This document shows, piece by piece, positions 1,190 through 16,995 of a DNA stretch of 64,000 bases. Position 1 is the stretch's first letter. Each line of letters begins with the position of its first letter. This DNA is from Mesostigma viride (Eukaryota > Streptophyta > Mesostigmatophyceae > Mesostigmatales > Mesostigmataceae), in assembly GCA_009746045.1 (NCBI GenBank), contig RPFO01000231.1:2221900-2285899 (forward strand), given 5' to 3'. Under the pieces are notes generated by a model. That model was not told the DNA's origin. It ran no database searches and saw only the letters and a program-made list of their open reading frames with translations. Both the position numbers and the translations under genes were made by a program.

Positions 1190-1257
1190 GCAAATGACGT
1201 ACACGGTGGGAAGAGACATCAACTGGAATATCACGTTCACGACTCCTTACTTCTATG
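1190..1257 (+). CDS. Exon 2: AapJ-like protein, module 1 hinge region
   Basis: The acceptor CCCCCCCAG ends at 1189. Joined to the AG left by exon 1, the exon reads RQMTYTVGRDINWNITFTTP and ends in the first base of a split Asp codon before GTCGGT at 1258. In AapJ proteins this is the strand after the VDVLxRNTTWT motif, leading into the conserved YYDGQGF motif. Confidence 0.85.
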
Positions 1258-1370
1258 GTCGGTGGGAATGCTGTACTTACGTAGTAACATAGTGGCAGAG
1301 CGGTCTGGTGGTATCCTGGGTAGGGAATAGGCACATGACATTCACGTGCATTCACGTGATCATTTATTAA

Positions 1371-1945
1371 TAGGCACGTCACATTCACGGCGCCCTATTT
1401 CTAAGGGTCCAAACAGATAGTGCAAAAAATGGTGTTAAAATTTCTAGAGTAGTGCTTTAAAATGTGTCAAGTCATCTGTTGTAAGATATAGGCACGTCAC
1501 GTTTGCGGCGCCCTACTTGTATGGTCCGTTGACAGTACTAGAGACCTCTGTATAACATCGATTGGGACATCAGCCAGTGTTTCACGGCACCCGACTTGTA
1601 CATAATGAGAATGTTGTATCGACCTGAGAATGTTGTATCGATCTTGTGTTAGAGTGTTGCAGTGGTGCCGAGTCATCTGGCATGAGGTTTAGGCATGTCA
1701 TGTTCACGGCGCCGTTTATCCAAGGGTCCGTGGGAAGGGTTGTACGAATTGGTGACAAATGGGGTCAAAGCCTATCATTATCCAATGCGAGGTGTAGGCA
1801 CGTCATGTTCACGGCGCCCTATACGGTGGGAAGTGTATGAATGGTGCGAGGCAGTGTTGAAAGCGTATCGTTATCCAACGCGAGGTATAGGCACGTCATG
1901 TTCATGGCGCATATTTTCACGGTCTGGTGGATGCATGTATCTTAA
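1371..1945 (+). repeat. Degenerate tandem copies of the exon 2/donor junction
   Basis: At least six decayed copies of the end of exon 2 and the start of its intron sit here, near 1377, 1497, 1580, 1697, 1803 and 1896. The exon text TCACGTTCACGACTCC recurs as TCACATTCACGGCGCC, TCACGTTTGCGGCGCC, TCATGTTCACGGCGCC and similar. Some copies extend past the splice site: GGTCCGTGGGAAGG at 1726 matches the intron start GGTCGGTGGGAATG. The copies share a leader resembling AGGCACG. Confidence 0.75.
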
Positions 1946-2078
1946 TCATATGGCGTGTGTCCCCCCTTCTGTTCATCTCTTCACCACCCTCCTCTCTCCC
2001 CAGCTAGTGTTGCGTACCCTGACCAACAATATCAACCTAATGATTTGAGAGTGCGGTAGGTCGCTGCATGGGACCCCG

Positions 2079-2284
2079 TCATCATCATCATCATCATCAT
2101 CATCATCATCATCATCATCATCATCATCATCATCATCATCATCATCATCATCATCATCATCATCATCATCATCATCATCATCATCATCATCATCATCATC
2201 ATCATCATCATCATCATCATCATCACCATCATCATCATCATCATCATCATCATCATCATCATCATCATCATCATCATCATCATC
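2079..2284. repeat. (ATC)n trinucleotide microsatellite
   Basis: About 205 bp of ATC/TCA repeats with a single CAC interruption near 2224, inside intron 2. The poly-His, poly-Asp and poly-Met readings are artefacts of the repeat. Confidence 0.97.
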
Positions 2285-2594
2285 CATGGGACTCCATACC
2301 ATCATCATCCAGCCTCGAGAGCCGAGGCCCCTTGAGAGTAGGGGCCTCTTTAAGCCTCGGTTGAGGATTTATTGTCCGGGACACATGCAAGGTGCTCCAA
2401 TCTAGTCTGATTCTATAACCTTGTTTCTCAGCCCACCATTATTCAGTGTCGGAACCCTCCTTGCCCCAGCCCTTTGCACCCGGCCCCTACTCTCTCCTAT
2501 TTTCTACACGGCAACCCGTCCCCTCGTCACATATTCTCCAATACTACCTCAGTGCATGCAACATTACCGCAATTATGGTGGTTTTCTCGTGCGT

Positions 2595-3003
2595 CTTGTC
2601 CCTCCCTCCCCCTCCCCCCTCCCCTCCCCTCCCCCTCCCCCTCCCCCCCTCCCCCCTCCCCCCTCCCCCTCCCCCCCCCCCCTCCCCCTCCCCCTCCCCC
2701 CTCCCCCTCCCCCCTCCCCTCCCCCTCCCCCTCCCCCCTCCCCCCCCTCCCCCCTCCCCCTCTCCCCCCTCCCCCCTCCCCCTCCCCTCCCCCCTCCCCC
2801 TCCCCCTCCCCCCCCCTCCCCCTCCCCCTCCCCCTCCCCCTCCCCCCTCCCTCCCCCCTCCCCCTCCCCTCCCCCCTCCCCCCTCCCCCCCCCCCTCCCC
2901 CTCCCCCCTCCCCCTCCCCTCCCCCCTCCCCCCTCCCCCCTCCCCTCCCCCTCCCCCCTCCCCCTCCCCCCTCCCCCCTCCCCCCTCCCCCTCCCCCTCC
3001 CCC
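2595..3003. repeat. Poly-pyrimidine (C3-6T)n tract
   Basis: About 400 bp made only of CCCT, CCCCT and CCCCCCT units lie in the 3' half of intron 2. It is not a usable polypyrimidine tract for the splice site, because the acceptor is some 190 bp further on. Proline-rich and glycine-rich readings on both strands come from the repeat. Confidence 0.95.
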
Positions 3004-15299: not shown

Positions 15300-15654
15300 A
15301 CCCCTCTTACTCAGATATGGTCGGATATGCAGGATAAGCAACGTTGGGCGGACAGTGTCAATGACTACGACCCCCCACCTGTGGGTCCTAGGAAATATAA
15401 AAAGCATGGTAGGCATAGTTTGCGTGCAAGATTAGCTCGAGGCCTCACTTGAGACCCATATTTTAGACTAGGTGTGGACATCTATGTACATATTGACGTC
15501 TTGGGGAGATGTCCACTGTATCTTAACTTGGGGAATTCAGTGCTCCGTGGTCCCCCAACGGGGACACGAGACTCATTAATTTATTGATGCGCGTGGTAGT
15601 TTTCGTGGCTGGGTATTTTTCTTCGTCCTTGGCACTTCTAGGTGGTCTACTGTC

Positions 15655-15712
15655 TAGTGACAGTTGATAATGGCCGAGCCCTTGGGCATCGTAGGTGGCC
15701 CCTGCTTGGAAA
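15655..15712 (+). repeat. Further exon 9-junction copy beyond the LINE
   Basis: AATGGCCGAGCCCTTGGGC then ATCGTAGGTGGCCCC matches the exon 9 end and donor. It shows that the LINE at 13.8-15.5 kb inserted into an already expanded repeat array. Confidence 0.7.
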
Positions 15713-16478
15713 TCATGGTATGTTGGTATGGCGCATATTTTCAAGGTGGATTCTGGGCTCTTGATGTGTCTCCTGCAAGTCTACTGCACATGTGCGCGGG
15801 CACTGGGCCGGCAAGTTTTTTTTTTATTTTGTCGTAACTTTTTCGAAGTTTATGTATCTTAGTATGATTTCCGGTGCTCCCTGTCTTCCCCAACATGCCC
15901 ACCCGGTGCGCCCCCCCCCCCCCCCAACACACTCACAGCGCCCGTTGGCCAATGTACCTCTGTCTGCCCACATGCCCACATCACCCACATTTCCGCGTGC
16001 CCATGTACCTCTACATGCCCCCATGCCCACGATGCCCCATGCCCCCATCTGCCATTCTATGCCTCCCCCCCCGCCCCCGCCCGGCCTCACGCAGCTGAGC
16101 GCAATTGCCCTTGCGTGTAGTTGTGTTTCCGGTAATTCAGGACTGTCAACCTGACAAGGGAGTTTACTTTCCGCCTGCTCACAACGCCGTCTATGCAAAG
16201 CTAAAATTAGGTTTGAAATCTGCTATTTATGGCCCCATTTTTTCTCCCGCATCCCCTGGCCTCCCTTCCCTAACTGATGTTGTCTGCCCCATCCCTTTTC
16301 CCCTCATCCGGTGTTGTGGTATCCCCCGTCCCTCCCCCCCTTCGGTTGTCGCGGTGTCCCCCTTTTCCCCCACCCCCCATGCGCCGCGTGTCTCCCTTCC
16401 CCCCCCCCTTCTCCCCCGTGCTATCCCCCTGTCCTCACCCCTCCACCCACTGTTGTCGTTTCCCCCTTGCCTCCCCAG

Positions 16479-16781
16479 CTGGGCCTGGTCTCGACCGAGG
16501 GCCTACCCTACCCCGCGCGCAACAACGTGGCGATGATCAAGGCGGTCGGCAACTACGGCGAGATCTACGCGCGCAGCATCCAGGCCTACATCCCCCGCGC
16601 GGGCACCGACAACGCGCTGTGGCTGCAGGGCGGGCTCATGTACCCCTACGTGTTTAATGGCGCGCTGCTTCCCGTGGACCGTTCGCCCCCGCCCCCGCCC
16701 GATAGCGCGGCCAATGGTGCCTATGCGTGGAGCCTCTCGTTGCTGCTGGTCGCAGGGCTCCTCGGGCTCGCCCTATTGTGA
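16479..16781 (+). CDS. Exon 10 (last): end of AapJ-like module 2, Pro-rich linker and C-terminal anchor
   Basis: The acceptor CTCCCCAG ends at 16478. The exon encodes MIKAVGNYGEIYARSIQAYI and NALWLQGGLMYPYV, the end of the SBP fold (AapJ: IVKQVGNYGEVFERN, GLNALWNKGGLQY). A Pro-rich stretch (DRSPPPPPDSAANG) follows, then a hydrophobic run (LSLLLVAGLLGLALL) ending exactly at TGA 16779-16781. A small-residue cluster, a short spacer and a terminal hydrophobic tail are the classic layout of a GPI-anchor signal. A single tail membrane anchor is the alternative. Confidence 0.87.
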   Translation: MGLVSTEGLPYPARNNVAMIKAVGNYGEIYARSIQAYIPRAGTDNALWLQGGLMYPYVFNGALLPVDRSPPPPPDSAANGAYAWSLSLLLVAGLLGLALL

Positions 16782-16929
16782 CAGACAGACTCTGTCACAA
16801 CAGCGTTGTCGCGAAAACATCCATCGTCACAGGAGCATTGTCGCGAGAACTCTGTCACTCACAATTGCTACTCTACCGTGGTGACAACAGCCACCGAACC
16901 AAAAGTTACCGTCACAGCAAGCGCCTTGC

Positions 16930-16995
16930 TTCCCGCGCGCTCGCCCTGTCGCGTCGCGGGGCCCTTCTTGGGCTCACCTTGTTGTGACAGCAGCT
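16930..16995 (+). repeat. Duplicate of the last exon's coding end in the 3' flank
   Basis: CTCGCCCTGTCGCGTCGCGG, GGGCTCACCTTGTTGTGACA resembles the exon 10 end (CTGCTGGTCGCAGGGCTCC, GGGCTCGCCCTATTGTGACA), including the stop codon. The exon-end duplication seen in the introns thus also occurs past the stop. Confidence 0.6.

Follow-up and report, generated by a model that had tools for sequence, protein, structure and literature searches.

The closest system that we find described is that of the lancelet ‘mirages’, minisatellite-like tandem duplications of exon-intron boundaries in the amphioxus Adh3, globin, TnC and PGBD5 genes, which the available portions of the reports document gene by gene (PMC3087553, PMC3902484). 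Mirages involve 5' or 3' borders, many with AG/GT, in units of 10-160 bp; in those same portions splicing is described as undisturbed in the tested cases, and mirages are proposed as a route to new introns (PMC3087553, PMC3902484). Related work, in the part of the paper available, describes intron gain by tandem duplication that crosses an intron-exon boundary, with the splice signals inherited (PMC4974935). Apart from these lancelet and intron-gain studies, none of the literature matches listed reports, in its available text, border duplication in Mesostigma or another alga.

Here we describe border duplication in a stretch of 64,000 nucleotides from Mesostigma viride (the window; C1713:2221900-2285899 of a 440-Mb assembly). 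The genome of this alga was published as 441.8 Mb and, according to the text available, has long introns (mean 1142 bp), with repeats making up 30.1% of intron space; that text does not mention border duplication, and words for splicing lead, in the main text, to one Iso-Seq passage only (PMC6947507). As in lancelet mirages, the repeat unit spans the exon-intron boundary, copies are direct and local (reverse matches at 0 of 77 borders outside the gene and 0 of 20 within it), and both border types are affected (the acceptor side of exon 4 and the donors of six exons). Unlike mirages, the copies lie in a streptophyte green alga and in several unrelated gene families, many are old and re-duplicated, and donors predominate; the likeness is structural and is drawn from the sequence of one assembly. 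The original prediction for this gene, which knew of no named system of this kind, thus overlooked the mirages; relative to the available accounts of these, what is new is that the alga belongs to another lineage, that several genes are affected, that decay is nested and that donors are favoured. In contrast to intron gain by tandem duplication, in which a new intron arises, the copies here lengthen existing introns, the original border remaining in frame. The copies share with intronic minisatellites their local head-to-tail arrays, common in the introns of this gene, but differ in that the unit takes in exon sequence and a splice site. Introners and transposon-borne introns are a route to many new intron sequences; unlike these, no shared element was found here, and each intron copies its own exon. 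Whole-exon tandem duplication, defined by a complete exon with both borders, does not describe the copies, which are exon ends only.

Splicing of all ten exons yields a single open frame up to the stop (132..16781, plus strand):

132-410, 1190-1257, 3192-3352, 5149-5397, 6396-6519, 7751-7891, 8661-8851, 10985-11110, 12293-12718 and 16479-16781, plus strand: the exons of the gene, with GT/AG borders.

The encoded protein matches SBP_bac_3, a family of bacterial extracellular solute-binding proteins, in two stretches (E=1.9e-19, Pfam profile search), and the 5' part of this SBP_bac_3-type gene probably lies before the start of the window. A hydrophobic tail can be seen by eye on the protein. An exon-like piece at about 2003-2056 was excluded, the frame joining 1257 directly to 3192 (DGQG motif) without it. 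Intron 9 holds a putative reverse-transcriptase relic, recognized by eye from its open reading frames and without a Pfam match. Elsewhere in the assembly, a protein encoded on contig C2011 and a protein from the Candidatus Megaira endosymbiont of Mesostigma viride are identical along 213 residues.

Copies of exon ends, many with the adjoining splice site, were found at the following positions, in agreement almost item by item with the original prediction (donors of exons 2, 3, 4, 6, 7 and 9, acceptor of exon 4, stop-codon end of exon 10):

About 1370-1410, 1488-1524, 1684-1729, 1795-1822 and 1882-1910, plus strand: five decayed copies of the 3' end of exon 2 (score 31; 0/1000 shuffles).
About 3491-3539 and about 3845-3901, plus strand: two decayed copies of the 3' end and donor region of exon 3, 76% and 70% identical through the junction (score 38; 0/1000 shuffles).
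5022-5094 (matching 5135-5204, through the AG) and 4766-4823, in a row spanning 4748..5094, plus strand: copies of the acceptor side of exon 4 (blastn 1.7e-20 and 5e-8).
5696..5714, plus strand: perfect 19-nt copy of the exon 4 donor (TCG/gtgggt; 0/1000 shuffles).
7961..8028, plus strand: copy of the terminal 65 nt of exon 6 and the first 3 nt of the following intron, at 91% identity (blastn 7.6e-22; scores 101 and 106 in two alignments).
8886..8938, plus strand: copy of the exon 7 donor region, with 29 nt of exon and 24 nt of intron, at a tandem offset of 63 (1/1000 shuffles).
Near 12887-12940, 13027, 13123, 13219, 13372-13426, 13447-13494, 13678 and 15661-15702, plus strand: eight copies of the 3' end and donor region of exon 9 (0/1000 shuffles).
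16953..16990, plus strand: copy of the terminal part of the reading frame, TGA included, lying past the exon 10 stop, 83% identical (0/1000 shuffles).

Each 3' end (up to 60 nt of exon plus 15 nt of intron) was aligned locally to the intron directly downstream of it after microsatellite masking, and significance was assessed against 1000 dinucleotide shuffles of the intron per border. The 3' ends of exons 2, 3, 4, 6, 7, 9 and 10 score 31, 38, 38, 101, 29, 57 and 34, respectively; the score was reached by one shuffle in 1000 for exon 7 and by none for the other six. The 3' ends of exons 1, 5 and 8 have no copy in their own downstream intron (scores 15, 20 and 15). Of the 5' starts, compared with their own upstream introns, that of exon 4 scores 110 (0/1000 shuffles) and that of exon 6, more weakly, 30 (2/1000), and the remaining seven of nine have no copy there. 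At a score of at least 28, a cut set after the data were seen, seven of ten 3' ends and two of nine 5' starts are positive against their own introns, versus 1/90 swapped donor and 0/72 swapped acceptor pairs of exon and intron; at the same cut, 3' ends against the upstream intron (0/9) and 5' starts against the downstream intron (0/10) are negative. None of the 20 border tests in the gene gives a reverse-complement match above the best shuffle. Mid-exon control windows (n=10) are positive in forward orientation for exons 2 and 6, because these exons are short and the window overlaps the copied end; the exon 10 control scores 29 in reverse, slightly above its best shuffle (27). The border-copy pattern in this gene is thus real and well supported. 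The strongest cases are the end of exon 6, the start of exon 4, and exon 9 with its eight junction copies, while for exons 2, 4 (donor), 7 and 10 the evidence consists of short or weak matches.

The copies are direct, local, mostly border-crossing and often serial or nested, and range from perfect down to about 70% identity. They comprise roughly the last 12-65 nt of an exon with its donor, or the first 56 nt with the acceptor; among the copies found in this gene, none includes a whole exon or both borders. Most HSPs cross the splice junction with tandem offsets, and the distance from border to nearest copy is about 35-140 nt in the clearest cases and up to about 300 nt in others. The best copy of the exon 4 start covers 56 nt at 95% identity and includes 14 nt of the preceding intron at offset 113, with acceptor-crossing HSPs at offsets 113, 260 and 369; a partial third copy near 4981 was noticed by eye. 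Exon 9 matches run 7 to 35 nt into the intron at offsets 208, 674, 769 and 2972. Around the exon 9 copies about three flank types recur in partly repeated order (alignment, by eye; flank matches at offsets 534 and 658), so that blocks of copies seem themselves to have been duplicated. Likewise, the intronic copies of exon 2 align better with one another than with the exon, which suggests re-duplication inside the intron. The prediction that copies are increasingly decayed with distance holds on the acceptor side of exon 4 (95% then 84% identity) but not for exon 9, where successive copies are 82, 95, 88, 85, 93, 83, 82 and 79% identical. The predicted decoy donors are present, GT being kept in 27 of 34 junction copies counted by eye (contig C2133, below, and the stop-codon copy excluded); this hints weakly that decoys are not obviously removed, as the search itself favours copies bearing GT.

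On one further point the prediction is not supported: border duplication is not peculiar to this gene, and is present in unrelated genes of the genome. Borders outside the window gene were placed with HMM guidance in a few gene families. Among 25 kinesin introns with both borders, from 10 regions, direct copies occur at 10/25 donors and 2/25 acceptors, and reverse copies at none; these regions are clusters (38 of 129 matches) picked because their exons lie close together, a choice that favours short introns, and 3 of 28 junctions without a clear border were dropped before counting. In 7 of the 25 introns the joined exons differ from the profile by at least seven residues, so that an exon may be missed there. 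Both acceptor positives are qualified, that on contig C1 by a doubtful border and that on C1502 by a match confined to the intron. At DEAD-helicase loci direct copies occur at 4/16 donors and 0/11 acceptors, again with no reverse copy; 13 of 30 loci were tested as single exons, six further regions, each carrying a pair of DEAD exons, were included, and sites without a clear border (donors of L049, L084, L086 and L087; acceptor of L087) were left unscored. Together the two families give 14/41 donors and 2/36 acceptors with direct copies and 0/77 borders with reverse copies. Under a strict rule that requires a match to contain 12 nt of exon or more, also set after the data were seen, the donor count is 11/41. 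Contig C2133 (L079) is kept in the former count and left out of the latter: its kinesin border is misplaced, the true donor probably lying 41 nt earlier, and a 63-nt array starts at the donor with little exon in its unit. Diverged paralogs of the window gene were examined at seven loci on contigs C2 and C1690: two of seven exon 3' edges have a copy, and of the seven 5' edges a single one is positive, through a simple repeat.

Perfect arrays in the kinesin genes support, as do the direct matches through the junction in the window gene, the predicted tandem duplication over the border in which a single border stays in use. In C1502 (L078), the last 28 nt and donor of an exon ending MEKIRDLLD recur in three extra copies with junctions at +88, +171 and +254, each 100% identical over the searched border, followed by a decayed copy at +555. 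In C2189 (L074), an exon ending in the kinesin HSSRSH stretch has copies at +70 (100%) and +140 (90%, decayed). The next donor in line, if spliced, would add 88 nt (C1502) or 70 nt (C2189) and shift the frame. These fresh arrays contain the exon end only and no whole exon.

Donors outnumber acceptors, a bias that draws on few gene families with HMM-guided borders. Over the window gene, its paralogs, kinesins and DEAD helicases, matches with at least 12 nt of exon occur at 19/57 donors versus 4/52 acceptors (p=0.001), the acceptor count including the exon 6 acceptor and a simple-repeat match in L015. Outside the window gene the same rule gives 13/48 versus 2/43 (p=0.0044), and within it 6/9 versus 2/9 (p=0.15); the donors in 19/57 and 6/9 leave out the stop-codon end of exon 10. 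A direction-blind mutational process is expected to hit both borders.

The prediction that introns grow specifically from exon borders is not supported, intron interiors being duplicated about as frequently. In the 21 introns of at least 700 nt, donor-centred windows have a copy in 11/21 cases versus 42/122 interior windows, taken 72-288 nt into the intron (p=0.14); with 36-nt windows, acceptors have copies in 4/21 cases versus 39/121 in nearby intron (p=0.31). The donor border is thus not established as a duplication hotspot, its excess over the interior not being significant. Local repeats occur in 42 of 127 windows of the gene's introns in forward orientation and 2 in reverse, versus 21 and 7 of 451 on a bacterial symbiont contig (p=4e-16). 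The corresponding forward and reverse counts are 43 and 3 of 150 in kinesin introns, 5 and 0 of 32 in exons of the window gene, 83 and 9 of 681 at nuclear DEAD loci, 28 and 3 of 203 in the virus-like 21-41.5 kb of the window, and 4 and 17 of 68 at two organelle-like loci. The direct excess is weaker outside genes (5 and 5 of 40 at 16.8-21 kb of the window; 51 and 30 of 211 at 41.5-64 kb). Microsatellites are abundant in the genome, as are minisatellites in intron interiors. Given the similar rates at interiors and donors, the border copies resemble one visible part of a general process, and the simplest view is one of local tandem duplication, most visible where an exon holds one copy fixed. 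The interpretation offered by the original prediction is, overall, partly supported.

We consider it probable that short local tandem duplications are ongoing in introns, that some of them span borders, and that donor copies are tolerated and acceptor copies removed. Copies would be made by slippage or unequal exchange, as in other minisatellites. Where a donor is duplicated, the first donor transcribed would still end the exon properly and the remainder would leave with the intron; such a duplication is probably tolerated with little harm, since normal mRNA would still come from the first donor. A duplicated acceptor would place an equal AG upstream, which, if used, would add exon and intron sequence to the mRNA, and such alleles would therefore be removed. 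The donor excess may thus reflect that the first site transcribed wins. On the same grounds, duplication of a stop codon would be harmless, the proper stop remaining first. Leftover copies would decay, might re-duplicate, and would lengthen the intron. One case sits uneasily with this account: the exon 6 copy is 91% identical in its exon part and its similarity ends just past the junction, the sequence beyond being nearly unrelated (alignment). Had one tandem unit been copied, its intron portion should still be recognizable, so that exon 6 needs later change, gene conversion or exon-only insertion.

That same copy, stopping nearly at the junction, together with the apparent reverse-transcriptase relic in intron 9, is what might recommend an origin from mRNA or other gene copies through reverse transcription or gene conversion; we regard this as very unlikely, since most copies extend past the splice site and lie in the same intron, and swapped pairs match in only 1 of 90 cases. 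A more serious competitor makes the donor border itself the hotspot, with transcription, R-loops or splicing leading to breaks or template switching that copies the exon end into the intron. The rate is indeed highest at donors (11/21 versus 42/122 in interiors), with a strong bias over acceptors, but the excess over interiors has p=0.14, copies also lie past the stop codon and at the exon 4 acceptor, and interior minisatellites abound, all of which leaves this explanation unlikely.

It is highly improbable that entire exons were duplicated as alternative cassettes and have since decayed except near their ends, leaving the present copies: although the exon 2 copies differ conservatively from the exon (alignment, by eye), no full-exon or two-border copy was found in the window gene, and the fresh kinesin arrays hold the exon end only. 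Chance similarity, simple-sequence bias or assembly artefact we hardly credit at all. The genome is rich in microsatellites, and perfect arrays could be assembly errors, but an assembly error cannot yield diverged copies and is refuted for those, and the shuffle, reverse-complement, swap and wrong-side border controls are clean except for one of 90 swaps. Short local duplication in introns, filtered by its effect on splicing, is the reading that we prefer.

That the same phenomenon occurs in several gene families of a streptophyte that branched early suggests a general way in which introns lengthen and acquire reserve splice sites, the border copies leaving rows of potential competing sites. 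The imbalance between donors and acceptors makes directly testable the old question of which of several identical splice sites in a row is used and which duplications selection tolerates; for such tests, the fresh arrays and their identical donors offer ready-made constructs. A broader reading, of tandem exon-border duplication throughout the genes of this plant-lineage genome, with strong 5'-splice-site polarity and with border-coupled mutation, linked to transcription or splicing, as the driver of intron growth, seems to us doubtful; if true, it would make the genome of Mesostigma a natural, genome-sized experiment on the choice between identical competing splice sites.

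The near-perfect repeat array at L079, a kinesin locus of the same assembly, probably begins at an exon-intron border, and its sequence is mostly intronic. It is listed here with the repeat, open reading frame (ORF) and reverse-transcriptase features of the window, for which window coordinates are used.

L079:562-900: near-perfect array of 63-nt units, starting at the probable kinesin donor, in which a donor-like site recurs.
13800-15450, inside intron 9 of the window gene: decayed non-LTR-type reverse transcriptase, with a YADDTTL-like motif recognized by eye.
47559-48537: three copies of a 326-bp unit, with 100% matches between copies.
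51618-52247, minus strand: fragment similar to the intron 9 reverse transcriptase.
56081-57202: ORF with a full-length DUF2961 domain (Pfam domain search, E=1.1e-96).

Neither the intron 9 reverse transcriptase nor the related fragment yielded a Pfam match.

The assembly also includes a contig of a Megaira (Rickettsiales) endosymbiont (C2011, which carries locus L003 and further loci), and contigs C602, C802 and C2103 look organellar, based on ABC genes that are repeated with identical scores.

Within the window, long ORFs without introns are clustered on both strands at 21000-41500, where Pfam domain searches returned class-V aminotransferase and DUF5871 matches, as well as sub-threshold matches to DUF5772 and MYND. 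This cluster, whose DUF5871 and DUF5772 matches are to families that we take to be linked to giant viruses, looks like an inserted large-virus-like element.
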